NCBI GenBank assembly: GCA_024239075.1
Contig: JANBVI010000055.1
Location: 62,001 to 126,000, forward strand
Length of the DNA stretch: 64,000 bases
DNA from: Fischerella sp. CENA71
GTDB lineage: Bacteria; Cyanobacteriota; Cyanobacteriia; Cyanobacteriales; Nostocaceae
Direction of reading: 5' to 3'
Below the pieces are notes generated by a model. It did not search any database. It worked only from the letters and a program-made list of their open reading frames with translations, and had not been told where the DNA came from. The translations under genes and the position numbers were made by a program. Of the stretch, positions 23,970 through 59,507 are shown in pieces (position 1 is the first letter of the stretch; each line of letters starts with the position of its first letter).

Positions 23970-24004
23970 TAGTTATTAGTCATTTGTCATTTGTTATTTG
24001 TCAT
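23970..24004. repeat. TCATTTG heptad STRR at island left border
   Basis: Units of TCATTTG/TTATTTG occur between mnmE and the aminotransferase gene. On the minus strand the last codons and stop of the aminotransferase (CAT GAC AAA TAA) are part of the repeat. Confidence 0.8.
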
Positions 24005-25103
24005 GCTCTAAGTTCAAGTAAAAATTTTTCAATAGTTTACATATATATTCAATTTCCTCATTTTTTAAATCGGGATAACTAGGAAGATTTATACCACGCC
24101 CACCAATATCCTCAGCAACTCTATGGCGTTCATCTTTTTGAGAATACATCGGCATGGTATGAACTGGGTAAAAAACTGGTCGAGTCTCAATACCAGCCTT
24201 AGCTAAATATTCTCTCAAGCTGTCGCGTTGACTTGCTTGGGGAGTAAGAATAGAAACCATCCAATATGAATGAAAAACATCACCTATTTCCGGATGAACT
24301 TTTAATTTTGTATCTTTTAAGTATTTCTTATAAAGTTCAGCAATATGGCGCTTTTTTGGCAAAATTTCATTAATTTTTTCTATTTGGGCTAAACCTATAG
24401 CTGCACAAATATTAGTCATGCGGTAATTGTAACCAACTACATCATGCCAATACTCTCGGTACTTAGCTAAACCTTGTCTTTTAAAATGAAGCGCACGTTC
24501 AAAGATACTTTGGTCATTGGTGATCAACATTCCTCCTTCACCAGTTGTGATAGTTTTGTTTCCATAAAAACTAAAACTAGCGACATCACCAAAAGAACCT
24601 ACATGCTGATTTTGATATTTAGAACCTATAGCTTCAGCACAATCTTCAATTAGAAATAGTTTATATTCATCAGCTATTTCTTTAATAACTGACATTTCAC
24701 AAGGATGACCATATAGATGTACAACTAAAATGGCTTTAGTTCTATTTGTTATCCTTCTACGAATTTCTTGGGGATTTATTTGCCATGTATCAGGAAGAGA
24801 GTCAACAAATACAGGAGTAGCACCTGTATAAAAAATAGCATTAACTGAAGCAATATAAGTTAGTGTTGGAACAATTACTTCATCCTCACAACCTATACCA
24901 AGTGATAATAAGGCTAGATGTAAAGCCACCGTTCCATTACATACTCCTGTGGCATGTTTTACATTAACATATTTTGCAAATTCCCTCTCGAATAAAGATA
25001 CATATTTTCCTTTAGAAGAAATCCAATTAGAATCAAGACAATCGTTTACATATTTTTTTTCATTACCTGATAGACTTGGTTGATATATAGGAATTTTATA
25101 CAT
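23994..25103 (-). CDS. DegT/DnrJ/EryC1/StrS-family aminotransferase
   Basis: The 369-residue product is a PLP-dependent sugar aminotransferase. Motifs include GNEKKYVNDCLDSNWISSKG, GVCNGTVALHLAL, VIVPTLTYIASVNAI, IEDCAEAIGSKY and the PLP-lysine block SFSFYGNKTITTGEGGM. Similarity is closest to GDP-perosamine synthase-type enzymes that aminate a keto sugar nucleotide. No membrane segments. It is divergent from the five-gene plus-strand row at 25840-31712 across a 736-bp AT-rich spacer and forms the left edge of the accessory island. The C-terminal residues are encoded by a heptad repeat. The exact sugar substrate is not known. Confidence 0.9.
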   Translation of the reverse strand: MYKIPIYQPSLSGNEKKYVNDCLDSNWISSKGKYVSLFEREFAKYVNVKHATGVCNGTVALHLALLSLGIGCEDEVIVPTLTYIASVNAIFYTGATPVFVDSLPDTWQINPQEIRRRITNRTKAILVVHLYGHPCEMSVIKEIADEYKLFLIEDCAEAIGSKYQNQHVGSFGDVASFSFYGNKTITTGEGGMLITNDQSIFERALHFKRQGLAKYREYWHDVVGYNYRMTNICAAIGLAQIEKINEILPKKRHIAELYKKYLKDTKLKVHPEIGDVFHSYWMVSILTPQASQRDSLREYLAKAGIETRPVFYPVHTMPMYSQKDERHRVAEDIGGRGINLPSYPDLKNEEIEYICKLLKNFYLNLEHDK

Positions 25104-25839
25104 TTTTGAGCAAGCCTTTTATTAGTAATACTTGAGCGCAAGTATTCTCAAGAAAAGATTAAACAATTTTTCTATCAGACTCATATTTAATATAAAAAAA
25201 TAACTAATTACACCTCTAAGCGAATTCTTAGTTTGTGAAGAGTTGCTTATTTTCCAAGTAAGTTTATAAATTAAATATAACTGCTATACATTTACATATA
25301 TTTATTTTATTAAATTTGACTGTTTCATATCTTATGTTGAAAAGATACTCATTTTCAACTCAAATGCAACTTAAATGCAACTCATATGTAATATGGTCAA
25401 AATTGATTTGTTTTATCATTAATCAACAAAACCAGTTCTAATAGCACTATCTGAGTCAATATTATTTACTCTATTCAGGACTTATTACCCTATTTTATAA
25501 AGAATTATCTACTATGACATTTGTAAAGATGTAATTTGTATTACAAAATTAAAAATGTTGCATATGAGTTGCAATCAACTATCTCATTGGCATAATATTC
25601 GTATCAATCCAACTTGATAGAAAAAAATTGAAATATATAAATCAAGACAGTATAAGCATAAGCAATTTTGATTTATTTCTCAAAAGGTTGGCATAGTTTG
25701 AATAGTTTAGACCTGTTGAATACAGCATTAATATAAGCAATTCATCTGTTCCAAAATTAATAGATGAATCAGAAGTATACAATTTTATTGTGTACAAAAC
25801 CAAGTTCACATAGTCTCTAACTTAATAAGATTGTTAACT
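25104..25839. promoter_or_regulatory. AT-rich divergent control region with 13-bp inverted repeat
   Basis: The spacer holds no gene. TGCAACTCATATG (25376-25388) is perfectly complemented by CATATGAGTTGCA (25561-25573). Just before the left arm, AAATGCAACT is directly repeated twice (about 25363-25382). The placement between the divergent aminotransferase and SDR genes suggests a shared operator for the island; that is inference. Confidence 0.45.
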
Positions 25840-26688
25840 ATGACAGTTATCACAAATAAAACAGTAATTTTGACAGGGGCATCACGTGGTTTAGGAGTAC
25901 ACATTGCTCATGCTCTAGCAAAAGAAAAGGCAACGATTATTGGTATTTCTCGTTCAAAGTCTGGGCTGAATAAAACACGTGATGAAGTCAAAGCTCTAGG
26001 TGGTCAATTTATTGGTTTTACATTTGATCTCGCAAATGTAGAAAGTTTATCATTGCTAGTACAACGTATTCATAACACAGTCACTCCAGTTAATATTTTA
26101 ATTAATAATACTGGAATGGAAATTTATCAATCTTTTGCCAATTATTCTCTCAATGATCTCCAGTCAATATTAACAACTAATTTACTAGCTGCAATGGAAT
26201 TAACCCGTTTGTTATTGCCAAGTATGTTAGATCAAGGTAATGGTCACATTGTTAATATTTCTTCTCTAGCTGGAAAAAAGGGAGTTCCTTACAACAGTAT
26301 TTATTCAGCGAGTAAAGCTGGTTTGCTCATGTGGACTGATTCTCTGCGACAGGAATTAGTTCATAGTGGAATCAATTTTTCAGCAATCTGTCCAGGATAT
26401 ATTTCTAAAACCGGAATGACCGTTGATAGTGGTTTACCTATTCCCATGTTAGCGGGTAAATCTAGACCTGAAGAAGTAGCAAAAGCAGTAATTAAAGCTA
26501 TTCAGAAAAACAAAGCAGAGGTCATTATCAATGAGAGTCCTAGCACAGAATTTTTGACAAAAGTCATGTTTGGTATTGGACAAGTTGCTCCACAATTTGT
26601 AGATACTGTTTATCGATTGATTGCTGTAACTAAGCTCAACCAAATGCGGGCAGAAAACTTCGCTAGGAATCAATATAAACGTGCGTGA
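25840..26688 (+). CDS. Short-chain dehydrogenase/reductase (SDR)
   Basis: The 282-residue protein is a classical-type SDR: the dinucleotide-binding motif TGASRGLG, NNTGME in place of NNAG, catalytic Ser in ISSLAG and the YSASK Tyr-Lys pair. The frame extends to a TTG at 25831, but the ATG at 25840 gives the normal SDR N-terminus. The C-terminal extension (about 230-282) is longer than in most SDRs and resembles lipid- or fatty-acyl-directed SDRs. It is first in a plus-strand row with the FkbM, GT-like and ABC genes, so a role in building or reducing an exported glycolipid or related metabolite is plausible. Confidence 0.88.
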   Translation: MTVITNKTVILTGASRGLGVHIAHALAKEKATIIGISRSKSGLNKTRDEVKALGGQFIGFTFDLANVESLSLLVQRIHNTVTPVNILINNTGMEIYQSFANYSLNDLQSILTTNLLAAMELTRLLLPSMLDQGNGHIVNISSLAGKKGVPYNSIYSASKAGLLMWTDSLRQELVHSGINFSAICPGYISKTGMTVDSGLPIPMLAGKSRPEEVAKAVIKAIQKNKAEVIINESPSTEFLTKVMFGIGQVAPQFVDTVYRLIAVTKLNQMRAENFARNQYKRA

Positions 26689-26857
26689 TAAATCCTTAAA
26701 ATTAAAATCTGGAACCATTTAGATATGTTATAGAGTGGCAAGTTTATCTCAAAAGCTCTTGCAGTCTAGTGTCAATACGATCAGAGTGAGCTTATCAGTC
26801 TGTAAAACTGAATCTGAATAAAGTATTTTGTCAAGAATTAAATTGGAGATAAATTCA

Positions 26858-27571
26858 ATGATTAATAAACTTTTCAGTTCTTCAAAGTTTATGATTCCTA
26901 TGCTAATGGAATTAGAATCTATGAAAAACGAAGTTTTTAGGCTCAGAGACAACGAATATAAATATACTAAATTCCATTCCCAGTTTGGAGAAGACAGATA
27001 TATTTTTGAAAATCTTAATTCGTCGCCTCAAGGAATATTTGTTGATGTTGGTGCTGGACATCCAAGTTATCTCTCTAATACTTATTTTTTTGAAAAAAAT
27101 GGTTGGAGTGGAATTTGTATTGATGCTGATATCAATCAAATTGAACTACTTAAAAAAGACAGGTCAAACGTAGAGTGGGCTGCTATCTCACCAATAGAAG
27201 GAGAAATAGAATTCTTCCAAGCTTCTTCTCCTGAGTATTCTAGTACTGTTCCAAAGGAAGAGTATAAGGAACCAAACCAGATTCAATTCAAAGATACTGT
27301 ACGAGTACCATCTTTCAAACTTGAAACTATTTTAGAAAAACATAAAATTGGTGTCATCGATATTTTAGATTTAGATGTTGAGGGAACGGAATTAGAAGTT
27401 TGGTCAACTTTTAATTATGAAAAACATAAGCCAAAAATTGTTATAATTGAGTACTACACATATGGTTTAGCTGACAATTCAGAACAAATAAAAACTTTTT
27501 TTTCAAAACTTCCCTACAAACTTGTTCATACAACTCCTACAAATTTTATCTTTGTGAATTCTTATACGTAA
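26858..27571 (+). CDS. FkbM-family methyltransferase
   Basis: The 237-residue product carries the SAM-binding motif GIFVDVGAGHPSYLSNTYFFE and the downstream DILDLDVEGTELEVW block that define the FkbM family, whose members O-methylate sugars or polyketides. The frame is open from a TTG at 26828, but GGAGA nine bases before the ATG at 26858 decides the start. No membrane segment. It lies 169 bp after the SDR gene and 143 bp before the GT-like gene. The substrate is probably a glycan or lipid made by the same island. Confidence 0.88.
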   Translation: MINKLFSSSKFMIPMLMELESMKNEVFRLRDNEYKYTKFHSQFGEDRYIFENLNSSPQGIFVDVGAGHPSYLSNTYFFEKNGWSGICIDADINQIELLKKDRSNVEWAAISPIEGEIEFFQASSPEYSSTVPKEEYKEPNQIQFKDTVRVPSFKLETILEKHKIGVIDILDLDVEGTELEVWSTFNYEKHKPKIVIIEYYTYGLADNSEQIKTFFSKLPYKLVHTTPTNFIFVNSYT

Positions 27572-27714
27572 GATCCTACAAATCTAGATGAAGGCGCAGA
27601 TATAAGACATTAAGATTTAAGTAAAGTAGAAGCCACTGCAAACCTACTGTTAAATGGGTAGAAATAGAATTACTCTCTCAAAATAACAAATAGATAAAGC
27701 TTAAGGTGTTTGTG

Positions 27715-28599
27715 ATGACACAAATAGCAAGAGATACAGCACTTTTAAACCAAAAACCAATTACGATTTTTACTGTACCTAAAGCATTTCAAGGACATAT
27801 TGGCATTATTCAAGAAAATGCAATTAAGAGTTGGACATTACTTTGCCCTCGTCCAAAAATTATTTTATTTGGTAATGAGGAAGGTATCGATGAGATTGCT
27901 AAAAAACTTAATGTCATCCACATACCCAATATTCAATTAAATGATTATGGTACACCATTGTTAGATGGAATATTTCGTCAGGCTCAAGAACTTGCTAAAG
28001 GTTCTATCTTGAGTTACGTAAACAGTGACATTATTTTGTTAAATGATTTTTTAGTCGCTGTGAATAAATTACAAGTAGCATCTTTCCATTATTTTTTGAT
28101 GATTGGACAGCGTACTGATGTAAATATTACAGAACGATTGGACTTTGATGAACTTGATTGGGACATTAAGCTTCACCACTTTGCTGTCAAGCAAGGGACA
28201 TTGGCATCAGTTGTGTGTATGGATTATTTTGTCTTTCCCAAGCCACTTTATACTGAGATTCCGTCTTTTGCAGTAGGGCGGGGTCATTGGGATCATTGGA
28301 TGACTTACTATGCCCGTAAATTGGGAATTCCGGTTGTTGATGTCACAGATGTGGTTACAGCAATACATCAGAATCATAATTATACTCACTTATCAGGTGG
28401 CCGGAGTGCAGCTTACGTCACAGGTGAAGAAGCTAAACAGAACGCCAACCTAGCCGGAGATGTGCATATGGCTAATGGATCTGTTGCTACCTGGAAACTC
28501 ACACCTTTGGGACTCAAAAAACGTAACTCATTATCTGCTCTTTTCTCTTTTCTAGTTGACATACCTCGTTACACCAAGTTGGTCAAGGAGATTCATTAA
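27715..28599 (+). CDS. Glycosyltransferase-like protein (GT-A-type fold suspected)
   Basis: The 294-residue product lacks membrane segments. The region SILSYVNSDIILLNDF resembles the central acidic loop of nucleotide-diphospho-sugar transferases, with NSD in place of DxD, and GRGHWDHWMTYYARKLG resembles the acceptor-side block of such enzymes. I do not recognise a named family. The start chosen is the ATG at 27715, preceded by AAGG; a GTG at 27706 is in frame. The neighbours (methyltransferase and ABC exporter) make a glycan or glycolipid role likely, but the enzyme class is an inference. Confidence 0.6.
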   Translation: MTQIARDTALLNQKPITIFTVPKAFQGHIGIIQENAIKSWTLLCPRPKIILFGNEEGIDEIAKKLNVIHIPNIQLNDYGTPLLDGIFRQAQELAKGSILSYVNSDIILLNDFLVAVNKLQVASFHYFLMIGQRTDVNITERLDFDELDWDIKLHHFAVKQGTLASVVCMDYFVFPKPLYTEIPSFAVGRGHWDHWMTYYARKLGIPVVDVTDVVTAIHQNHNYTHLSGGRSAAYVTGEEAKQNANLAGDVHMANGSVATWKLTPLGLKKRNSLSALFSFLVDIPRYTKLVKEIH

Positions 28600-28679
28600 A
28601 CATTTGTGTTATCAAAAGGTCGAATTGATCTGGTTATATACTGTGAAAATTTAAATTTTTTGGCTGTTGAGGATAAGCA

Positions 28680-30320
28680 ATGAACCTTTTCCGCCTTCTA
28701 TTACGCACTTCTGCTCTTTTCCTCAGCCTAGCTGTGTTGGCTGGTATTCTTAGTGGCGGTTGTGCTGCCGGTCTAATTGCCCTAATTAATGCCACATTGA
28801 ATCAGAATCAACCATCAACTACTACCTTAGTTTGGAGTTTTGCTGCTCTGTGTCTAGTACGACTAATTGCTAATTTAGCTTCTCAAATTTTGCTCATTAA
28901 TCTTTCAGAAAAAGCCATTCTCGACCTGCGGATGTTGTTAAGCCGCCGTATACTTGCTTCTCCCTTACGTCAGTTAGAACAGATTGGTGCTTATCGTCTT
29001 TTAGCTACCTTGACTGAAGATATCGGAACAATTTCTGGCACAGTTCTAATTATTCCTTTTTTTTGTATCAATATTGCCATTGTGATTGCCTGCCTAATTT
29101 ATCTGGGTTGGCTGTCTACTACTATCTTCGTCATCGGTTGTTGTTTCCTGTTCGTGGGAATATTCAGCTATTTACTACCAATGATCAAAGCTATGTCCTT
29201 GCTGAAATTGGCTCGCGAGCAGGAAGATCGGTTATTTAAGCATTTCTGCGCCATAACTCAAGGTACAAAAGAACTCAAGCTGCATCGTGAGCGACGGTTA
29301 TCATTTCTCAGAGAAGACCTTCGTACTACTGCTCTATCATCCCGCCGTCATAATGTTGTTGGAATGAGTGTTTTTGCAGCTGCTGGTAGTTGGGGGCAAA
29401 TTCTCTTTTTTGTCGCTATCGGTTTGTTGTTATTCACTCTACCTTCTCTGACAAGAATTCCTCCCACAATCCTATCTGCCTATGCCTTGACTATCATCTA
29501 TATGATGTCACCTTTGGAACACATTATGGGTATGTTACCCAATATAACTAGAGTCTTAGTGGCATTAAAAAAAGTTGAATCGTTGGGTCTTGTATTACCT
29601 AACTGCTCAAACGAAACTCTTTCTGAAGAAACATTTAATTCAGAAAAATTTTGGCAGTCTCTAGAACTGGTTAACGTCAGCCATACTTATTATCAGGAGC
29701 GAGAGGAAACAAACTTTATTCTTGGTCCTATCAACTTGAAATTTCATCCAGGAGAATTAATTTTTATCGTAGGAGGTAACGGTAGTGGTAAGTCTACCCT
29801 TGCTAAACTAATTTCTGGTCTTTATATCCCTGAAACTGGAGAAATTTATCTAGATAGGAAGCAAATCGATAATCACAATAGAGAATGGTATCGTCAGCAA
29901 TTTTCAGTAGTATTTTCTGACTTCTATCTTTTTGAGCGTTTACTAGGTTTAGAAAGTAGGAACTTAGATGCTCAAGCTCAAAACTACCTTGTCCAATTAC
30001 AACTTGATCATAAAGTTAATATCAAAGATGGCGTCTTTTCTACAACAAATCTTTCTCAGGGACAGCGTAAGCGTCTTGCTTTACTCACTAGTTACCTAGA
30101 AGATCGCCCCATTTATATGTTTGATGAATGGGCTTCAGACCAAGATCCTATCTTTAAAGAAATATTCTACACACAACTTCTACCAGAACTAAAAAGTAGA
30201 GGCAAAACTGTACTAGTGATCAGCCATGATGACCGATATTTTCACATAGCTGACCGTATCGTCAAGCTGGAATACGGCAAAGTGAAATACGACAAAAATC
30301 CTAAGTTACTTAACATTTGA
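28680..30320 (+). CDS. Cyclic-peptide-export-type ABC transporter (fused membrane and ATPase)
   Basis: The 546-residue half-transporter has about six membrane segments in residues 1-290 and a C-terminal ATPase: Walker A GGNGSGKST, signature LSQGQRKR (a variant of LSGGQ), Walker B IYMFDEW and the H-loop VISHDD. This organisation and sequence match the SyrD/PvdE cyclic-peptide exporter family. The Walker B aspartate is followed by EWASDQDP, a feature of that family. It is 80 bp after the GT-like gene and 21 bp before the next, indicating an operon. No nonribosomal peptide synthetase gene lies in the window, so the cargo may be a glycolipid or a small glycosylated compound; the direction is presumably export. 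Confidence 0.88.
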   Translation: MNLFRLLLRTSALFLSLAVLAGILSGGCAAGLIALINATLNQNQPSTTTLVWSFAALCLVRLIANLASQILLINLSEKAILDLRMLLSRRILASPLRQLEQIGAYRLLATLTEDIGTISGTVLIIPFFCINIAIVIACLIYLGWLSTTIFVIGCCFLFVGIFSYLLPMIKAMSLLKLAREQEDRLFKHFCAITQGTKELKLHRERRLSFLREDLRTTALSSRRHNVVGMSVFAAAGSWGQILFFVAIGLLLFTLPSLTRIPPTILSAYALTIIYMMSPLEHIMGMLPNITRVLVALKKVESLGLVLPNCSNETLSEETFNSEKFWQSLELVNVSHTYYQEREETNFILGPINLKFHPGELIFIVGGNGSGKSTLAKLISGLYIPETGEIYLDRKQIDNHNREWYRQQFSVVFSDFYLFERLLGLESRNLDAQAQNYLVQLQLDHKVNIKDGVFSTTNLSQGQRKRLALLTSYLEDRPIYMFDEWASDQDPIFKEIFYTQLLPELKSRGKTVLVISHDDRYFHIADRIVKLEYGKVKYDKNPKLLNI

Positions 30321-30341
30321 TTCTGTGAGGAGTATCAAACA

Positions 30342-31712
30342 ATGCTTTTTACAAATCTCAATAAGATTGTTACAACTGGCTTGTTAACTAATAATTTTAA
30401 AGCAAAAGTTTCATTACGCGAAAAACAGGATAGAAGATTAAGAGCAGATGTAGAGAGTGTTTTGTCTTGCAGAGAATGGATTAAGTCTATAACCAATAAT
30501 ACATTTGACAGCACAAGAATACTAGGAATTGTTTCTGTGGCAAAAGGAGCCGAAAATTATTTACCATATACTATCCCCAAAATCATTCAACAAATCTCTG
30601 AAATTGGGATGATGGCTGATATTGTTATTGGTCTCAATAATGGTTTTGAATGTCAGTCTGTGATTGAACGCTTTAATTTGATTCCAAATACTCAAGTCAT
30701 TCATTTATATACTGGAGAAAAGCTTGGAAACAATATTCCAGCTAAGATTTTTGATAATGCAAAGTGTGAAGGAGAATTTTATTTATTAAGTAATGTTGAT
30801 TACCAATCTTCCCAGCACAGGATATTTATTGTCCATCAAAAAATGGGAGAATATACAGCAGGTAAAATCCGGGTTTTGGGAGATATTTATGGTTCTTTAC
30901 TACTGAGGAGTATAGAAAATGGATGGATACCACCTGCATTTTTAGTTGCTTTTGATGCCGAATCTCAGTTTTTAGTAGAGCAAAAAGATACATTCATAGA
31001 GCCAAAATCTAATGGTCTGATGTTAATGGTAAACAAATTTAAGAATGAACCCGAAATAGATATTCTTGGTACAAGAAACAAATTTGCTGTTTACCAAAAA
31101 AGTATATTAGATGGAATGAAAGTTCTCTTGCCTAACTTTAGTGAGGAAATTCCTCCTCTTCAATTTTTTCTAGATGCTGTTCATGGTAGATACATCGGCT
31201 ACCAATGGATGCCAGGAGGAGGCACAATAGGAAAGACTGATGTTCTCATTAGCTTGTTAGTGGTAATTTCTCAAAGGTATCCAGGTACAAGAAGTGAAGA
31301 TTCTCACCTGACTATTTTAGCTAAACACGCGGGCTTTATAGGCAAAATATTCTTAGATGTTGTTTCCATAAACAGAACTCCTAGTCTTACCGAAATGACA
31401 ACTGGAGAAGAACAAAAAAATGCTTGGGTGGAACAAATATTTAGATGGAATACTGGTTATCAAGGATTGAGATTATGCTATGGAGTTCATAATATTAAAT
31501 CGATAGTATGTGATAAAATACCTTTGTCTATTTTTATAGATCCAATGAAATTTTTGAAAATTTTGAAGGGGAAAGATAAAATAAATATAAAGTCAATATT
31601 TAAAAAGGTAAAGACTTTAGCACTTGCCTTTTTAGCTTCTCAAAATATCAAAAAGAAAAGTTCAGGAAATCCGGACATTTTACAAGGAAGTAAAACAAAA
31701 GCTAGTTGGTAA
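30342..31712 (+). CDS. Divergent glycosyltransferase-like protein
   Basis: The 456-residue product is not assigned to a named family. Features suggesting a GT2-type enzyme are ILGIVSVAKGAENYLPYTIPKI near residue 60 (a nucleotide-sugar entry strand), VAFDAESQFLV near 205 and GTRSEDSHLTILAKHAGF near 310, which resembles the ED-x-x-L acceptor motif of processive GT2 enzymes. The C-terminal tail (about 400-456) is Lys-rich. It follows the ABC transporter by 21 bp and ends the row. It could add a sugar before export; this is inference. Confidence 0.55.
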   Translation: MLFTNLNKIVTTGLLTNNFKAKVSLREKQDRRLRADVESVLSCREWIKSITNNTFDSTRILGIVSVAKGAENYLPYTIPKIIQQISEIGMMADIVIGLNNGFECQSVIERFNLIPNTQVIHLYTGEKLGNNIPAKIFDNAKCEGEFYLLSNVDYQSSQHRIFIVHQKMGEYTAGKIRVLGDIYGSLLLRSIENGWIPPAFLVAFDAESQFLVEQKDTFIEPKSNGLMLMVNKFKNEPEIDILGTRNKFAVYQKSILDGMKVLLPNFSEEIPPLQFFLDAVHGRYIGYQWMPGGGTIGKTDVLISLLVVISQRYPGTRSEDSHLTILAKHAGFIGKIFLDVVSINRTPSLTEMTTGEEQKNAWVEQIFRWNTGYQGLRLCYGVHNIKSIVCDKIPLSIFIDPMKFLKILKGKDKINIKSIFKKVKTLALAFLASQNIKKKSSGNPDILQGSKTKASW

Positions 31713-32069: not shown

Positions 32070-34322
32070 ATGTTGCCTAAACCTAAGAAATACTGGACAC
32101 CGTCAAACTGGGCAAGTTGGAAGCCATTTGGTATTGGAGAGCAGTATCCGAATAACTATTGGGAGGTATTTCGAGCGATTTGGTTGTCGCGCGATCGCTT
32201 ACCCTATGCTTGGCAGATTCTTAATCAGGGAGTTTGTGACGGTTGTGCTTTAGGTACAACTGGGATGAAAGATTGGACGTTAGAAGGTATACATCTATGT
32301 AATGTTCGATTGCGGTTATTACGCATGAACACCATGCCAGCTTTTGACCCTCAATTACTGGCAAATGTGGAGCAGTTACAGATGTACAAAAGTGCTGAAT
32401 TGCGGGAATTAGGACGCCTTCCATTCCCGATGATCCGCCGATGCCGAGAAAAAGGATTCCACCGAGTTAGCTGGGATGAAGCTTTAGATGTAATTGCTAC
32501 TCGTATCCGTGCCACAACACCAGACCGCCTCAGTTTCTACATTACCAGTCGCGGCACTGTCAACGAGACTTATTATGCTACCCAAAAAGCTGTGCGGGCG
32601 ATGGGAACAAATAATATTGATAATGCTGCCCGTATTTGCCATTCTCCCAGCACCTCCGGACTGAAAGCAGCTTTAGGTGTAGGGGCGACGACTTGTTCTT
32701 ATAAAGACTGGGTGGGTACTGATTTATTAGTCTTTATTGGCTCGAATGTCGCCAACAATCAGCCTGTCACAGTCAAATATCTGCATTACGCCAAAAAAGC
32801 TGGTACAAAGATTGTTGTCATTAACACATACCGCGAACCAGGGATGGAACGCTACTGGGTTCCCTCCATTCCTGAAAGTGCTTTGTTTGGTACTAAATTT
32901 GCTGAAGATTTCTTTTTAATCAATACGGGTGGTGACATAGCATTTTTAAATGGCACCATCAAGTATATGATTGCCAATGGTTGGGTAGACGAATCTTTTA
33001 TTGACCGTTACACCAGTGGTTTTGCAGAATTAAAGACAAGCCTGGAAAATCAAACTTGGGAAGAATTAGAAAGACTTTCGGGTAGTACTCGCGAGCAGAT
33101 GTACGCCTTTGCCACAATGGTGGGAGAAGCGAAAAAAGCCGTGTTTGTGTGGAGTATGGGTATTACTCAGCATGAATGCGGTGAAGATAATGTTAGAGCT
33201 ATTATTAATCTTGCCCTCACTAGGGGTTTTGTTGGTCGTGAAGGCTGCGGTTTAATGCCAATTCGCGGCCATTCTGGTGTGCAGGGTGGTGCAGAGATGG
33301 GATGTTACGCCACAGTGTTTCCTGGTGGTAAACCCATTACTCCCGAAAATGCAGCCCAGTTGAGTCAGGTTTGGGGGTTTGAAGTACCAACAACTAGGGG
33401 TTTAATTGCCCCAGAGATGATTGATGCTGCATACAATGAGCAATTAGATGTATTGTTCTCTGTAGGTGGAAATTTCTTGGAAGTGCTACCAGAACCTGAT
33501 TATGTGGAAGAGGCGCTTCAGCGTGTACCGTTGCGAGTTCACATGGATATTGTTCTCTCCAGTCAAATGTTAGTGGAACCGAGTGATACTGTAGTACTTT
33601 TACCCGCGACAACTCGCTACGAAATACCTGGAGGAGTAACAGAGACTAGTACCGAACGCCGAGTCATTTTCAGTCCAGAAATTCCTGGCCCCAGAATCAA
33701 AGAGGCGCGTCCAGAGTGGGAAGTGTTTATGGAATTAGCAAGACGGGTTATAGATACACGACATGTCGCGTCTCTACATTTTGAAAATACAGCTATGATG
33801 CGACAAGAAATTGCTCAAGTTATTCCTTTATATGCAGGGATTCAACACTTGCAGCAAGCAGGTGATCAATTTCAGTATGGTGGTTCACATCTGTGCTTTG
33901 GCTGGAATTTTCCCACAATTGATGGCAAGGCACATTTTGCACCATTGTCTCCCAGTGTAGGGGCGCAGAGCAATGCACCTTTACCACCAGATTGTTTTTT
34001 AGTCGCAACCCGCCGGGGTAAACAATTTAACAGTATGGTACAGGAACGCAAAGATGCCATTACAGGTGCATTCCGGGAAGCGGTATTAATGAATGCTGCT
34101 GATGCAGATAGGTTAGGGTTGAAAGATGGGGATGCAGTCATTCTCAAAAATCAGTTGGGAGAGTATCAGGGAAGAGTATATATTGCACCCATTCAGCCTG
34201 GGAATTTACAGATTCACTGGCCAGAGGGAAATGTGTTGTTAGATAAAAGCAAGCGATCGCGCGAAGGTGTACCAGACTATAATGCTGTGGTGCGATTGGA
34301 AATAAAAGATCGGGGGATCTAG
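32070..34322 (+). CDS. FdhF/YdeP-family molybdopterin oxidoreductase
   Basis: The 750-residue product belongs to the molybdopterin-dependent oxidoreductase superfamily, YdeP/FdhF subgroup. VCDGCALGT near residue 56 is the reduced N-terminal CxxC motif of the subgroup, which may not hold a full 4Fe-4S cluster. RICHSPST includes Cys190, which aligns with the Mo-ligand Cys/Sec of formate dehydrogenases. GFVGREGCGLMPIRGHSGVQGGAEMG and the C-terminal NAADADRLGLKDGDAV fold are present. A stretch coding DTRHVASLHFE (about 33755-33785) coincides with half of a dispersed genomic repeat. Cytosolic, as no signal is seen. The electron partner and substrate are unknown. The stop codon sits at the junction with a Uma2 tail. 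Confidence 0.85.
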   Translation: MLPKPKKYWTPSNWASWKPFGIGEQYPNNYWEVFRAIWLSRDRLPYAWQILNQGVCDGCALGTTGMKDWTLEGIHLCNVRLRLLRMNTMPAFDPQLLANVEQLQMYKSAELRELGRLPFPMIRRCREKGFHRVSWDEALDVIATRIRATTPDRLSFYITSRGTVNETYYATQKAVRAMGTNNIDNAARICHSPSTSGLKAALGVGATTCSYKDWVGTDLLVFIGSNVANNQPVTVKYLHYAKKAGTKIVVINTYREPGMERYWVPSIPESALFGTKFAEDFFLINTGGDIAFLNGTIKYMIANGWVDESFIDRYTSGFAELKTSLENQTWEELERLSGSTREQMYAFATMVGEAKKAVFVWSMGITQHECGEDNVRAIINLALTRGFVGREGCGLMPIRGHSGVQGGAEMGCYATVFPGGKPITPENAAQLSQVWGFEVPTTRGLIAPEMIDAAYNEQLDVLFSVGGNFLEVLPEPDYVEEALQRVPLRVHMDIVLSSQMLVEPSDTVVLLPATTRYEIPGGVTETSTERRVIFSPEIPGPRIKEARPEWEVFMELARRVIDTRHVASLHFENTAMMRQEIAQVIPLYAGIQHLQQAGDQFQYGGSHLCFGWNFPTIDGKAHFAPLSPSVGAQSNAPLPPDCFLVATRRGKQFNSMVQERKDAITGAFREAVLMNAADADRLGLKDGDAVILKNQLGEYQGRVYIAPIQPGNLQIHWPEGNVLLDKSKRSREGVPDYNAVVRLEIKDRGI

Positions 34323-46270: not shown

Positions 46271-46343
46271 TGGAGCTAAGCGGATTCGAACCGCTGACCC
46301 CCTCAATGCCATTGAGGTGCTCTACCAACTGAGCTATAACCCC
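46271..46343 (-). tRNA. tRNA-Ala(GGC)
   Basis: The minus strand folds as a tRNA of 73 nt: acceptor GGGGTTA/TAGCTCC, D arm GCTCAGTTGGTAGAGC, anticodon arm CCTCA-ATGGCAT-TGAGG with anticodon GGC, and T arm CAGCGGTTCGAATCCGCT. CCA is not encoded. Confidence 0.95.
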
Positions 46344-46797: not shown

Positions 46798-46871
46798 TCG
46801 GAGCGGCGGGATTTGAACCCACGACCTCCACTACCCCAAAGTGGCGCGCTACCAAGCTGCGCTACGCCCCG
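46798..46871 (-). tRNA. tRNA-Pro(GGG)
   Basis: The minus strand folds as a tRNA of 74 nt: acceptor CGGGGCG/CGCTCCG, D arm GCGCAGCTTGGTAGCGC, anticodon arm CCACT-TTGGGGT-AGTGG with anticodon GGG, and T arm GTGGGTTCAAATCCCGC. CCA is not encoded. The two tRNA genes are 454 bp apart on the same strand. Confidence 0.95.
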
Positions 46872-53931: not shown

Positions 53932-54111
53932 TCATTTGTCATTGGTTATTGGTCATTTATCATTTGTAAGAGTTGCAGCGATTTGATGTTTCTTAAGATA
54001 GTTATGTTTATATAGATAGTATTGACAAAATTTCAATATCAAACAACAGATAAATCTATCTTTGGCTATAAACTAATGACCAATGGCAAATGACAAATGA
54101 CAAATGACAAA
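53914..54111. repeat. TCATTTG / ATGACAA heptad STRR pair flanking a spacer
   Basis: Units of TCATTTG/TCAATGG (53914-53968) are complementary to units of ATGACAA (54074-54111). The left run encodes the last codons of the kinase at 51097 (MVNGQ) and the right run contains the start codon of the kinase at 54104. The RNA between them could fold into a large stem-loop. Confidence 0.85.
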
Positions 54112-57022
54112 TTTAATTTTGGTTGTCGATGATGACAATTTAGTACGCAGGCAGTTACGTGAATTGCTAGCAACAGCAGACTATGAGGTAGTAGAGGCAA
54201 GTAGTGGTGAGGAAGCCTTAGCTGTCTATACTCAACAGCAACCAAAATTAGTGCTGCTAGATGCTTTGATGTCAGGGATGGATGGGTTTAGTTGCTGCGC
54301 CCAATTAAAATCACTTCCTGGTGGCGATCGCACACCCGTATTAATGGTAACAGGTCTGGTTGAACAAGAATCTCTAGAAAAGGCTTTTGCGGCAGGTGCG
54401 GCAGATTTTATTACCAAGCCCATTAAATGGCCGATTTTGCGCCAACGAGTGCAGCGTCTTTTAGAAGCCAGTAGTGCAATGCAAACACTACAGCAACAAA
54501 CTAAACAGCAGATTCTAGTTGCAGAACTCAGTCAACAGGCACTAGCTGGTATAGATTTAATTTCGTTAATGCAACAGGCAGTAACTTTTATTGCTGAATG
54601 TCTAGAGGTAGAGTATTGTAAGGTTTTGGAACTACTGCCAGATGGAAATAACTTGCTGCTCCGGGCGGGAGTTGGTTGGCAACCTGGGCTTGTAGGACAA
54701 GCAACCGTTAGCGCAGGTATAAATTCTCAAGCGGGTTACACTCTAGTTTCTAACGACCCAGTTATTGTAGAAGACCTCCGCACAGAAACCCGTTTCACAG
54801 GACCACAACTGCTAATAGACCATCAAGTAATTAGCGGTTTGTCGGTAATTATTCATGGCAAAGAGCGTCCTTTTGGTGTTTTGGGCGCACACACAACTAA
54901 ACATCGCATTTTCAGCAATGATGATATTTACTTTTTGCAAGCTACAGCTAACGTTTTAGCTACAGCTATTGCTCGTCAACAAGTTGAAGACGCACTTAAA
55001 GAAAGTGAACAACGTTGGCATTTAGTTTTACAGGGTAATAATGATGGCATTTGGGATTGGAATGTCAAAACTAATGAGGTTTTTTATTCTACACACTGGA
55101 AAGAAATGCTCGGTTATGAAGAAGAGGAAATTTCTAACCATTTGGATGAATGGTCAAATCGAGTACACCCTAATGATATAGGCTGGGTGAGACAACTTGT
55201 CCAAGACCACTTTGAGCAAAAAACTCCATTTTACATAAGTGAATATCGTCTTCTTTGTAAAGACGGTACTTACAAATGGATTTTGGATCGCGGTCAAGCG
55301 CTGTGGAATGATCAAGGTGACGTTGTACGGATGGCAGGTTCTCATAGCGATATTACCGAACGTAAGCTATCAGAAGAAAAATTACGTCAGAGTGAAGAAC
55401 GTTTTCAATTCCTGGCTCGTGCGACTACAGATGTAGTTTGGGACTGGGATTTACTGACAAACTATGTGTGGTGGAATAACAATGTCCAAACATTGTTTGG
55501 TTATTTACCAGAGCAAATCGGGAATAACATTAATTGGTGGTATGAATGTATACACCCGGATGATAGACAGAGAATTGTTGCTGGTGTTCGCGCTGTCATA
55601 GAAAATAAACAACAAGCTTGGTCTGAGGAATACCGCTTTTGCCGTAGCGATGGTTCTTATGCATACATATTTGATCGCGGTTACATTGTCCACGATCGCA
55701 TGGGTAATCCTGTACGGATGATCGGAGCCATGATGGATATTAGCGATCGCAAACGCGCCCAAGAAGAATTACAGCGTCAAAACATCCGATCGCGTTTGTT
55801 TGCTGATATCACTCTCAAAATTCGCCAGTCATTGCAAATCGATGAGATTTTGCAAACTACTGTCACAGAGATACAAAAACTCCTCAACGCCGACCGAGTA
55901 GTCATCTTTAAGCTGCTATCTGAAGGTTACGGAAGTGTAGTTAAAGAAGCAGTCGTTCCTGGTTGCCCCGTAATTATCGGAGAAAACATCGTTGATCCTT
56001 GCTTTAACGAAGCATACATCGATAAATACAAAAGTGGGCGAGTGGGGATAATTACCAATGTCGAAGAAGCTAATCTTCAACCCTGCTATCTAGAAATGTT
56101 GCAAAGATATGCAATCAAAGCTAATCTTGTTGTCCCAATTCTCCAACACAACAAACTATGGGGGCTATTGATTGCCCATCAGTGCGCCCATCCCCGTGAT
56201 TGGAATGAATGGGAAACAGAACTATTGCGACAACTAGCAGATCAAATAGGTATTGCTCTTGCTCAAGCTAAACTCCTAGAAAAAGAAACGCGCCAACGGG
56301 AAGAACTTAGCCGTTCAAACAAGGAACTACAAGAATTTGCCTTTGTGGCTTCCCATGACTTGCAAGAACCACTACGGAAAATCAAAACCTTTGGCGATCG
56401 CCTCAAAGCTAGCTGTGGTGATGTCCTCCCAGAGCAGGGACAGGACTATCTTGAGCGGATACAAAATGCAGCTCGCCGGATGCAGATTTTAATAGAAGAT
56501 TTATTAAGCCTTTCACGAGTTACCACCAGGGCGCAGCCTTTTATCCCAGTGGATCTTTCAGAAATAACCCAAGAGGTGTTGTCTGATTTAGAAATTAGTA
56601 TTCAGCAAACCGGAGCAAAGATAGAAATAGGTGAATTATCCACTATCAACGCCGATCCGTTGCAAATACGACAATTGTTACAAAATTTGATTGTTAATGC
56701 TCTGAAGTTTCACCGTCCAGAAGTAACGCCCATCGTAAAAATTTATAGCCAGGTCTTATCAGAACCATCAGAACATAGTAATACTGAAAAATGCCAAATC
56801 ATTGTGGAAGATAACGGTATAGGATTTAATGAAAAATACTTAGACCGAATTTTCAATGTCTTTCAGCGCCTACATGGTCGTAGTGAATATGATGGTACTG
56901 GTATTGGGTTAGCAATCTGCCGAAAAATAGTTGAGCGTCATCACGGAAACATTACCGCTAAGAGCGAACCAGGGGAAGGAGCAAAATTTATTGTGACTTT
57001 GCCAATTCATCCCCATTCTTAA
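54104..57022 (+). CDS. Sensor kinase with receiver, two PAS and a cyanobacteriochrome-like GAF domain
   Basis: The 972-residue product starts with a receiver (Asp53 in LVLLDALMSG), then a GAF (about 145-295), two PAS/PAC units (about 305-555: NDGIWDWNVKTNEVFY, TTDVVWDWDLLTNYVWW, each closing with a SDITERK- or SDRKRA-type end), a second GAF (about 560-735) and HisKA/HATPase (His751 in ASHDLQEPLRK; GIGFNEK and GTGIGLAI). The second GAF has NLQPCYLEML followed by KANLVVPIL and IAHQC; Cys661 occupies the position of the bilin-binding Cys of cyanobacteriochromes, with Tyr next to it instead of the usual His. The ATG lies in a heptad repeat. It follows the first kinase by 172 bp. Confidence 0.9.
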   Translation: MTNLILVVDDDNLVRRQLRELLATADYEVVEASSGEEALAVYTQQQPKLVLLDALMSGMDGFSCCAQLKSLPGGDRTPVLMVTGLVEQESLEKAFAAGAADFITKPIKWPILRQRVQRLLEASSAMQTLQQQTKQQILVAELSQQALAGIDLISLMQQAVTFIAECLEVEYCKVLELLPDGNNLLLRAGVGWQPGLVGQATVSAGINSQAGYTLVSNDPVIVEDLRTETRFTGPQLLIDHQVISGLSVIIHGKERPFGVLGAHTTKHRIFSNDDIYFLQATANVLATAIARQQVEDALKESEQRWHLVLQGNNDGIWDWNVKTNEVFYSTHWKEMLGYEEEEISNHLDEWSNRVHPNDIGWVRQLVQDHFEQKTPFYISEYRLLCKDGTYKWILDRGQALWNDQGDVVRMAGSHSDITERKLSEEKLRQSEERFQFLARATTDVVWDWDLLTNYVWWNNNVQTLFGYLPEQIGNNINWWYECIHPDDRQRIVAGVRAVIENKQQAWSEEYRFCRSDGSYAYIFDRGYIVHDRMGNPVRMIGAMMDISDRKRAQEELQRQNIRSRLFADITLKIRQSLQIDEILQTTVTEIQKLLNADRVVIFKLLSEGYGSVVKEAVVPGCPVIIGENIVDPCFNEAYIDKYKSGRVGIITNVEEANLQPCYLEMLQRYAIKANLVVPILQHNKLWGLLIAHQCAHPRDWNEWETELLRQLADQIGIALAQAKLLEKETRQREELSRSNKELQEFAFVASHDLQEPLRKIKTFGDRLKASCGDVLPEQGQDYLERIQNAARRMQILIEDLLSLSRVTTRAQPFIPVDLSEITQEVLSDLEISIQQTGAKIEIGELSTINADPLQIRQLLQNLIVNALKFHRPEVTPIVKIYSQVLSEPSEHSNTEKCQIIVEDNGIGFNEKYLDRIFNVFQRLHGRSEYDGTGIGLAICRKIVERHHGNITAKSEPGEGAKFIVTLPIHPHS

Positions 57023-57152
57023 TTTTTCTATTCCTCATCGGTTTATTATAATCCCCATATAAAAGTTTTTTATATTACATTTCTAGTAATTAATTTGTTT
57101 AAATTTAATAATGAATTAATCCTAATCAACATCACAAAGGAGAAAATGCAGA

Positions 57153-57599
57153 GTGAAGGGTCGGCAAACAACCGTCACGATCTTGATGGCTGATGATGAT
57201 GAGGAGGACTACATGTTAGTTCGCGAAGCATTAGCAGAAAGCCGCTTGGCTATGGATCTACGTATCGTTCGCGATGGCGAGGAGTTAATGGATTATCTGT
57301 ATCGTCATGGTCAGTATGCTGATCCTAATATTTCACCTCATCCCGGTCTGATTTTGTTAGATTTAAATATGCCTAAAAAAGATGGTCGTGAGGCGCTCAG
57401 AGAAATAAAAAATGATCCAGAGCTAAGGTCAATTCCCGTGGTAGTACTAACTACCTCAAAAGCAGAGGAAGATATTTATCGTACCTATAATTTGGGAGCG
57501 AATTCATTTATTATTAAACCCGTGACATTCGCTGCCTTAGTTGAGGTGATGAAGGCTATAGGAAAATATTGGTTTGAAATTGTAGAACTGCCGCTATGA
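57153..57599 (+). CDS. CheY-like response regulator (Rcp1-type)
   Basis: The 148-residue product is a single receiver domain with the acidic pocket MADDDEEDYM, phospho-acceptor Asp70 in LILLDLNMPKKDG, LTTSKAEED and the Lys in IIKPV. The insertion between beta3 and the active site (RHGQYADPNISPHPG) is typical of the Rcp1/Rre27 group that partners with phytochrome-like kinases. It starts at a GTG ten bases after AAGGAG; an ATG at 57146 is out of frame. It lies between two kinases, so the phosphorelay is probably kinase 54104 to this regulator to further outputs. Confidence 0.9.
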   Translation: MKGRQTTVTILMADDDEEDYMLVREALAESRLAMDLRIVRDGEELMDYLYRHGQYADPNISPHPGLILLDLNMPKKDGREALREIKNDPELRSIPVVVLTTSKAEEDIYRTYNLGANSFIIKPVTFAALVEVMKAIGKYWFEIVELPL

Positions 57600-57614
57600 G
57601 CGTGGGAGGGAGCA

Positions 57615-59507
57615 ATGAAAAACAACTTGATCAAAGTTCTGCTGATTGATGATGATGAAGATGACTATATATTAACTCGTGATTGGTTTAAAGAATTTCA
57701 AGTAGCTGCTTGTGCTTTAGAATGGGTAAATAGCTATCAAGCTGGTAGGGATGCGATCCTGACGGGTCAATATGATGTTTATCTTGTAGATTATCGTTTA
57801 GGTGAAGGTAACGGATTAGAACTATTACGCGAAGCTATTAATAATGTCTGTGCAGCCCCAATTATTTTTCTCACTGGTCAAGGAGATAGAGAAATTGATA
57901 TTGAGGCCATGAAAGCTGGAGCGGCTGATTATTTAGAAAAAAGTCAATTGGCAGCCCCTCTACTTGAGCGCTCTATTCGTTATGCCTTAGAACGTAAACA
58001 AAATGAGAAAAAAATCCGGGAACAAGCTGCTTTGTTAGATGTGGCTACAGATGCCATTTTTGTACAGGATTTAGATCACAAAATTTTATTTTGGAATAAA
58101 GCTGCTGAACTTCTTTATAAATGGAAAAAAGAAGAAGCTATTGGTAAAAAAGCCTTAGAACTTTGGCAAGAAAAAGACTTATCAAAATTACAAGCAGCCT
58201 TCTCTATTTTGATGAAAAATTGTGCTTGGGAAGGAGAATTACAGCAAATCACAAAAACTGGTCAAGAAATCACAGTTGAAAGTCGTTGGACACTTGTAAG
58301 AGATTTTGACCATAATTCTCAATGCTTTTTAGTAGTAAATACTGATATTACTCAGAAAAAACTATTAGAATCCCAATTTTTACGCGCCCAAAGATTAGAA
58401 AGTATAGGTACTCTTGCTAGCGGTATTGCCCATGACCTTAACAATGTCCTCGCACCAATATTAATGACAGCGCAACTGTTAGAATCACAACTGGATGATG
58501 AGCGCAGTAAGCGACTGTTACCGATTTTAATTACCAATGCCAAACGAGGAGCAAATTTAGTCAAGCAAGTATTATCTTTTACTCGTGGAATGGAAGGCGA
58601 TCGCACCTTGCTGCAATTTAAGCACATAGTCAGAGAAATTCAGCAAGTGATGAGAGAAACATTCCCGAAATCTATAGAAGTTTCTACATCCATCCCGACA
58701 AACCTCTGGACTATATATGCTGATCCCACCCAACTGCATCAAGTACTGATGAATTTGTGTGTCAATGCTCGTGATGCTATGCCTATGGGCGGTAGTTTAA
58801 CTATCTCTGCGGAAAACTTTTCAGTAGACGAAAATTATGCCAGAATGCATTTTGACGCCCGAATTGGCGCTTATGTAGCCATTACCGTTAGTGATACAGG
58901 ATTCGGTATTAATGCTGGAATATTAGATCGAATATTTGAACCATTTTATACTACTAAAGAATTTGGTAAAGGAACTGGTCTCGGTCTTTCTACAGTGCTG
59001 GGAATTGTCAAAAGTCATGGTGGTTTTATCAATGTCTACAGTGAACTTGGCAACGGTAGTCAATTTAAAGTATTTTTACCAGCACAACAGACACCCGAAA
59101 CTACAGAAGAACCAGACAAAGAATTTCCCAGTGGTAATGGCGAACTAATTTTGGTCGTTGACGATGAAGATTCAATTCGCGACATCACTAAAACATCTTT
59201 GGAGACTCATAATTATAAAGCAATCACAGCCTGCGATGGCATTGAGGCGATCGCTCTTTATGCAGAACATCGCGACAAAATATCTGTAGTCTTAACAGAT
59301 ATGCTCATGCCCTCTATGGATGGACTCACAACCATTCGCACCTTAAAAAAAATTAATCCCCACGTCAAAATCATCGCCGTCAGTGGACTAGCATCCACCG
59401 AAAAAGTGAACGCTGCCACAGACATAGGTGTCAAAGCCTTTTTATCCAAACCCTATACCGCCAAGCAATTACTGCAAACCATTGGCGTGGTGAAAAATGG
59501 AAAATAG
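57615..59507 (+). CDS. Hybrid sensor histidine kinase (REC-PAS-HisKA-HATPase-REC)
   Basis: The 630-residue product has an N-terminal receiver (Asp59 in VYLVDYRLGEG), a PAS domain (REQAALLDVATDAIFVQDLDHKI reduced to key residues; about 135-250), HisKA with GIAHDLNN (His273), HATPase (DTGFGIN, GTGLGLSTV) and a C-terminal receiver (Asp562 in VLTDMLMP). It begins 15 bp after the CheY-like gene, consistent with an operon. The PAS-to-REC half is paralogous with the kinase at 51097. The first receiver may be the input from the Rcp1-type protein. Confidence 0.92.
   Translation: MKNNLIKVLLIDDDEDDYILTRDWFKEFQVAACALEWVNSYQAGRDAILTGQYDVYLVDYRLGEGNGLELLREAINNVCAAPIIFLTGQGDREIDIEAMKAGAADYLEKSQLAAPLLERSIRYALERKQNEKKIREQAALLDVATDAIFVQDLDHKILFWNKAAELLYKWKKEEAIGKKALELWQEKDLSKLQAAFSILMKNCAWEGELQQITKTGQEITVESRWTLVRDFDHNSQCFLVVNTDITQKKLLESQFLRAQRLESIGTLASGIAHDLNNVLAPILMTAQLLESQLDDERSKRLLPILITNAKRGANLVKQVLSFTRGMEGDRTLLQFKHIVREIQQVMRETFPKSIEVSTSIPTNLWTIYADPTQLHQVLMNLCVNARDAMPMGGSLTISAENFSVDENYARMHFDARIGAYVAITVSDTGFGINAGILDRIFEPFYTTKEFGKGTGLGLSTVLGIVKSHGGFINVYSELGNGSQFKVFLPAQQTPETTEEPDKEFPSGNGELILVVDDEDSIRDITKTSLETHNYKAITACDGIEAIALYAEHRDKISVVLTDMLMPSMDGLTTIRTLKKINPHVKIIAVSGLASTEKVNAATDIGVKAFLSKPYTAKQLLQTIGVVKNGK

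Follow-up and report, generated by a model that had tools for sequence, protein, structure and literature searches.

Small gene islands related to the heterocyst glycolipid (hgl) island occur in many cyanobacteria. In a survey based on homologues of 19 PCC 7120 genes, 259 of the 494 Cyanobacteriia with an hgl island had additional ones; many of these were small 'hgl-like' islands comprising hgdC, hgdB, hglE, F, G, C and A, and their products may differ from heterocyte glycolipids (PMC11804610). This survey describes hgl-like islands as common across the heterocytous cyanobacteria, with an unknown product. Here we describe a 64,000-nucleotide stretch of the branching cyanobacterium Fischerella sp. 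CENA71 (the window, part of contig C55, JANBVI010000055.1, in a genome of 7.47 Mb). It carries a row of genes encoding a short-chain dehydrogenase/reductase (SDR), an FkbM-family methyltransferase, a putative sugar transferase labelled GT4, an ATP-binding cassette (ABC) exporter and an orphan protein, P6. As judged from sequence, this SDR-(FkbM)-GT4-ABC-P6 row probably serves as the tailoring and export arm, now detached, of a polyunsaturated fatty acid (PUFA)-synthase-like, hgl-like lipid polyketide synthase (PKS) island located on contig C64 (about 118,000-149,100) of the same genome.

On an hgl-like island, homologues of the seven shared genes would be expected in about five ORFs (open reading frames). 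Judged by family matches, the C64 set has PfaA-type, ketosynthase-acyltransferase (KS-AT) and PfaD proteins side by side with DevB and DevC. As in the published description of such islands, the genome has a further PfaA-type locus besides it, on contig C88. The passages of the survey that describe the islands do not mention PapA, DarAB, P6, GT4, an exporter of family TIGR01194 or cl3 (PMC11804610). The last is a family of about 620 amino acids (aa) whose N-terminus carries a TubC_N docking domain and whose remainder matches no Pfam or NCBIfam family (for example L044:6098-7960). The arm of the window is not on the hgl-like island (C55 vs C64); only in relatives do the two share one stretch.

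With the hgl island itself, the system has in common a PUFA-synthase-like PKS, glycosylation and DevBCA-type export, whereas C64 has a DarB-type ketosynthase and the arm has a TIGR01194 exporter and other sugar enzymes. The reductase part of HglB, the thioester reductase of the hgl island (an acyl carrier protein (ACP)-reductase of about 500 aa), was unmatched among the ORFs of C64:102000-141800 in a search by BLAST only. The line between hgl and hgl-like islands is not sharp, because a reductase homologue of about 460-506 aa is also present in certain cl3 clusters from other families (L047, L048 and G118). In L047 (4749-6269) and L048 (5403-6917), this homologue has about 505 aa and is about 64% identical to the thioester reductase of C88. 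A heterocyst envelope polysaccharide locus, a match to which the sequence-only reading had named as refuting it, was rejected here in one test, the ABC scoring 102.7 against a cut-off of 725 for HepA (NF045513).

Two further systems are comparable. In Azotobacter, a phenolic lipid is produced by PUFA-synthase-like genes acting together with type III PKS (PMC13291983), and both systems combine PUFA-synthase-like chain supply with separate headgroup-forming enzymes, a parallel suggested by the DarB-type ketosynthase on C64. Azotobacter has two type III PKS, whereas C64 has a StlD/DarB ketosynthase, and the relevant parts of that paper describe no sugar or export arm. The nostochlorosides of Nostoc punctiforme are glycolipids other than heterocyst glycolipids, made by a different cluster, ngl (PMC10849952); common to both would be a glycolipid distinct from the heterocyst glycolipids, with a glycosyltransferase in the cluster. 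As described, ngl encodes a fatty acyl-AMP ligase together with homologues of CylC and CylK; none of these was named in our family scans, in which the weakly AurF-like protein of C64 was not compared with CylC. A term search in a survey of gene clusters from Subsection V, published in 2015 (PMC4558948), gave no occurrence of heterocyst glycolipid, hgl or resorcinol, and among open-licence PMC papers we found no title or abstract opening on this arm.

Co-occurrence of the arm genes with a PKS marker

In many relatives, P6 is surrounded by a PKS set of a KS-AT protein, PfaD, an ACP, a PapA-type acyltransferase, an NAD-dependent epimerase-like protein and cl3, and we used cl3 as the marker for the PUFA-synthase-like PKS island. 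Among 218 genomes of the window's family, we found P6 in 35 and cl3 in 111. All 35 genomes with P6 had cl3, compared to 76 of the 183 others (Fisher p 2.9e-12, uncorrected for kinship); two of the 35 are less complete, with P6 represented by a 99-aa fragment in G364 and by a match divided between two contigs in G227. P6 was located less than 20 kb from cl3 on the same contig in 22 of these genomes. In addition, P6 was present in 5 of 195 genomes sampled from the order, all with cl3. GT4 was found in 13 of the 218 family genomes, and each of them had cl3 (Fisher p 1.7e-4, uncorrected for kinship). The distance to cl3 was below 11 kb in 8 of the 13, one of which, G354, lacks P6.

ABC and P6 recur as a pair, SDR and GT4 less strictly. 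G260, from the genus group of Fischerella muscicola, and G229, from another, both have PfaD-DarA-DarB-ACP-cl3-PapA-epimerase followed by SDR, ABC, a glycosyltransferase (GT) and P6 on one contig, within about 30 kb and with other genes between. In F. muscicola PCC 7414, one of the genomes in which contig borders intervene between P6 and cl3, a short contig carries GT-ABC-P6, and another ends with cl3-PapA-PapA-epimerase, then an SDR and a GT with further genes between. The genetic link between the arm and the PKS is well supported. In the window's own genus, P6 and cl3 are apart in all five genomes.

Upstream of and divergent from the row lies a gene for a DegT/DnrJ sugar aminotransferase (AT), and the sequence-only reading had taken all six genes as one unit. 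This did not hold: at E ≤ 1e-165, AT is found in only 6 of the 218 family genomes, five of them of the window's genus, as against 13 for GT4 and 35 for P6. The order SDR-FkbM-GT4-ABC-P6 recurs only in Pelatocladus among the loci compared, with AT not beside it. The genes thus occur in part independently in related genomes, the ABC-P6 pair recurring and AT being nearly restricted to the genus. AT adjoins mnmE in four of the five genus genomes, and in the fifth, Pelatocladus, it is about 2.9 kb from the PKS cluster. It is probably a neighbour and a doubtful member of the system, and only possibly supplies an amino sugar to the pathway. Its closest solved structures are perosamine synthetases (3bn1, E 6.7e-100), whose substrate we take to be GDP-4-keto-6-deoxymannose. 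SDR homologues sit in PKS-linked arms of relatives. Elsewhere, FkbM was found only in Pelatocladus (L053, 95%) among the loci compared.

The exporter clade and gene turnover around it

The ABC belongs to the cyclic peptide export ABC transporter family (TIGR01194). We placed it in a tree of 31 rows (29 different), of which 11 came from stretches that also hold cl3. One clade of 20 rows (support 100/99) comprises the window's ABC and all 11 PKS-linked exporters examined; two paralogs from the same genome (54-56% identity) fall outside. The five rows of the genus form a clade (100/99) inside a nine-row clade (100/99) together with the PKS-linked exporters of G229 and G260. The simplest history on these sequences would be an exporter that was originally PKS-linked and parted from the PKS once in the window's genus. 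Over all rows, the tree needs five changes of the PKS-linked label; therefore other separations of ABC and PKS exist too, some of them perhaps contig breaks only.

The named rows nearest to the window's ABC are those of Westiellopsis prolifica and Pelatocladus maniniholoensis, the former 98% identical in amino acids. The top matches among solved structures were ABCB1 chains in the ATPase part (E about 1e-30); over most of the length, relatives were MsbA (E 2.4e-22) and PglK (1.6e-21), which are flippases of lipids and lipid-linked sugars, the best family still being TIGR01194. In two other genomes of the order, G069 (L049) and G020 (L050), ABCs 65-66% identical to the window's lie in a different shared neighbourhood without cl3.

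Around this exporter, the gene content changes. mnmE and AT are found left of the arm in four of the five genus genomes, and the content between AT and ABC varies (Table 1): beside the same ABC stand SDR-FkbM-GT4, SDR with a second P6, or a GT1 gene. In Pelatocladus, the SDR-FkbM-GT4-ABC-P6 block is placed elsewhere and adjoins homologues of the window genes 54104, 57153 and 57615. That these distant genes adjoin the arm there suggests a rearrangement or a movement of the block. The corresponding stretches are L053:1-5968 in Pelatocladus and 54104-59507 in the window, at least 22 kb from the window's arm. Compared at the nucleotide level with Westiellopsis, mnmE of the window's genome is 95.4% identical and seven genes of the PKS cluster are 91.0-94.4% identical, as against 98.4% for ABC, 85.4% for SDR and 80.4% for P6. 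These uneven identities point to an exchange of pieces. Arms in other genera include a sulfotransferase, a UDP-galactopyranose mutase, a protein resembling monogalactosyldiacylglycerol (MGDG) synthase or a polysaccharide pyruvyl transferase.

Tentatively, an hgl-like lipid pathway may have been divided in this genus: the PKS half would be conserved, whereas the decoration genes would form a mobile cassette that varies between strains around a fixed exporter. Strains would then display different headgroups on a single secreted resorcinolic lipid, a serotype-like system for a PKS lipid. In that case, P6 and GT4 would be new glycosyltransferase families recruited to the pathway.

The PKS half, its predicted product and rival explanations

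The sequence-only reading had called the lack of a non-ribosomal peptide synthetase (NRPS) or PKS near these genes unusual. The missing PKS is explained by the PKS half on C64 of the same genome. There, the PfaA-type PKS scored 1821 bits (cut-off 1010), and the ketosynthase passed the cut-off of the StlD/DarB family (581 vs 450) and stayed below that of resorcinol DarB (514 vs 550). Its partner is without a family match, and we take it to be DarA-like. The flavoprotein belongs to the Trp-halogenase family (110.5 vs 21), and the AurF-like protein remained below its cut-off (19.1 vs 29.6). Among the cluster proteins scanned, the PapA-type protein also passed the cut-off of the Condensation family (44.6 vs 30.6). 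For C64 138,000-157,900, the assignments come from an ORF list and scans of a few proteins. We found no match to ABC, SDR, GT4 or P6 in C64:102000-141800. The product of C64 is possibly a halogenated resorcinol-type lipid, to judge from these families.

If both halves act together, the HglE/PfaA-type PKS with KS-AT and PfaD would build a long acyl chain on ACPs, and the DarB-type ketosynthase with its DarA-like partner would, in the window's genus, join chains to a resorcinol-type lipid, to be acylated by the PapA-type acyltransferases. The SDR would reduce a keto group, GT4 and P6 would add sugars and FkbM would O-methylate one of them. The ABC half-transporter, as a dimer, would then carry the glycolipid over the inner membrane, either by itself or as a step before the DevBCA exporter beside the PKS. 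We infer these catalytic steps, the exporter's cargo and the final product from the protein families. A glycosylated and exported small molecule or glycolipid had also been proposed by the sequence-only reading; a glycolipid-type product with its exporter remains the best interpretation, without the six genes as one conserved set.

Sugar transfer is the likeliest role of both P6 and GT4, neither of which reached the cut-off of any Pfam or NCBIfam family. The columns invariant in 12 P6 sequences include D205 and E207 (FDAES), D320, Q365, R368 and W369, a DxE/D/QxxRW pattern that we take to be the layout of processive GT2 enzymes. In the relative L044, a GT2 domain precedes the P6 domain in one fused protein. 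Similarly, two of three distant GT4 relatives (41-43% identity) have a further GT2 domain (PF00535), the third having TPR repeats. AlphaFold models were too poor to search (mean pLDDT 39.8 for P6 from 12 sequences and 34.8 for GT4 from four). P6 was not found on plasmids, its four matches in a sample of 244 genomes of the phylum were all in the window's family, and one other family contributed two matches in the sample of the order.

Several observations weigh against assigning the arm to the C64 island. P6 was not seen near cl3 in 13 of the 35 genomes, including that of the window, some of these cases lying at contig ends. Moreover, P6 is absent from 76 of the 111 genomes with cl3, so the PKS functions in its absence. 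In the order sample, 14 other genomes have distant relatives of GT4, and not one of them belongs to the 20 with cl3; the wider GT4 family is therefore not tied to the PKS. The C64 island is equipped with a DevBCA exporter of its own, and the arm could instead serve the second PfaA-type PKS, which is accompanied by a thioester reductase (337 vs 213 bits) on C88, presumably the heterocyst glycolipid island. ABCs at E ≤ 1e-60 occur in 73 of the 195 order genomes, and among the plasmid relatives listed (the best 15 of 29), 10 of 15 are annotated as cyclic peptide exporters. Profile comparison by hhalign gave a probability of only 0.3% for P6 against a GT2 alignment (A3), both alignments being shallow, and 0.1% for GT4; a PDB profile search with both proteins yielded nothing convincing (best E 0.62, none, 0.59). 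Finally, arm genes are broken in two members of the genus, with an SDR fragment in G362 and a P6 fragment in G364.

Alternatively, the arm might decorate and export a surface glycan or glycolipid that does not come from the C64 PKS, such as the headgroup of the C88 heterocyst glycolipid or an exopolysaccharide repeat unit, and the co-occurrence with cl3 would reflect kinship and large genomes with many genes of this type. This would fit an arm of mainly sugar-type enzymes, the resemblance of AT to perosamine synthetase, the mutase and pyruvyl transferase in the arm of G229, the PKS and thioester reductase on C88, and Fisher tests that are uncorrected for kinship. However, the proximity of P6 to cl3 in 22 genomes and the PKS linkage of 11 of the 20 rows in the ABC clade argue against it; in addition, none of the six genes gave a Wzx/Wzy-type match in the Pfam scan and HepA is excluded by score. 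We consider it rather unlikely.

An exporter of a small cyclic peptide or other secondary metabolite made elsewhere, with opportunistic neighbours, would agree with the TIGR01194 score, with the two paralogs elsewhere in the genome, and with the TubC_N domain of cl3 and the Condensation match of PapA, both known from NRPS systems. No adenylation domain was named in the scanned cluster proteins of relatives, however, and the clade of the window's ABC holds PKS-linked exporters and not the paralogs of its own genome; we regard this explanation as improbable. Least likely of all is a decaying, functionless remnant left after the arm had parted from the PKS, as might be read from the fragments in G362 and G364 and from the patchy arm genes, given that all six window ORFs are intact, ABC is nearly identical to that of Westiellopsis and the invariant positions of P6 are kept across 12 sequences.

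A detached arm of the C64 PKS island thus remains our preferred reading. It would provide a first handle on a widespread orphan lipid pathway, that of the hgl-like islands whose product the survey gives as unknown (PMC11804610). What looks like one version of the hgl-like island has an accessory set (cl3, PapA and, in the genus, the DarB-type ketosynthase) and a separable arm attached to it. The predicted product would be an exported, glycosylated and, in the genus, resorcinol-type lipid, and two families without recognised relatives, P6 and GT4, accompany the pathway.

Features of the locus and its surroundings

All six ORFs of the window are open at the places where the sequence-only reading had put them, and family scans bore out its DegT, SDR, FkbM and ABC assignments, as well as its remark that two genes, the fourth and the sixth, belong to no recognised family. 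The 21 bp that it gave between ABC and the last gene were confirmed by measuring from the ABC stop to the P6 start.

Table 1. Position and content of the arm, the PKS half and the arms of relatives
Feature	Sequence	Position	Strand	Remarks
AT, DegT/DnrJ sugar aminotransferase	window	23994..25103	-	PF01041, 426 bits
A+T-rich divergent spacer between AT and SDR	window	25104..25830		presumed promoter region of AT and SDR
SDR-family reductase	window	25831..26688	+	adh_short PF00106, 181 bits
FkbM-family methyltransferase	window	26828..27571	+	PF05050, 59.6 bits (cut-off 22.7)
GT4, putative sugar transferase (our label, not CAZy GT4)	window	27706..28599	+	without Pfam family
ABC exporter, TIGR01194 type	window	28680..30320	+	ABC_tran 100.6; TIGR01194 518 bits (curated cut-off 286.2)
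P6, orphan protein, putative divergent GT2-like glycosyltransferase	window	30342..31712	+	invariant DxE, D, QxxRW
PKS set	C64	118,038-143,681	-	epimerase, two PapA, cl3, ACP, Trp-halogenase-family flavoprotein, weakly AurF-like protein, repeat protein, StlD/DarB ketosynthase, DarA-like protein, PfaD, KS-AT, PfaA-type PKS
DevB, DevC, DevA	C64	145,889-149,084	divergent from PKS set	each above cut-off
AT-ABC interval	window			SDR-FkbM-GT4
AT-ABC interval	G362			SDR fragment, GT4
AT-ABC interval	Westiellopsis (L054)			GT2-family gene, second P6, SDR
AT-ABC interval	G364			GT1 gene
Arm of G229	L085	13354-19221		UDP-galactopyranose mutase, MGDG-synthase-like protein, polysaccharide pyruvyl transferase

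At 30.5-39.0%, the G+C content of the six genes is below that of four flanking genes (41.9-45.1%). Scans for promoters and terminators near the arm gave results at chance level, and repeats were short. Short parts of the spacer (25551-25640 and 25540-25621) have matches in Westiellopsis (L054) and G364. An Rfam scan of the window detected two tRNAs and nothing else; both tRNA genes are on the minus strand (46271-46343 and 46798-46871). Directly after the arm, positions 32070-34322 encode a molybdopterin oxidoreductase of the FdhF/YdeP type (TIGR01701, 671.5 vs 582.15).

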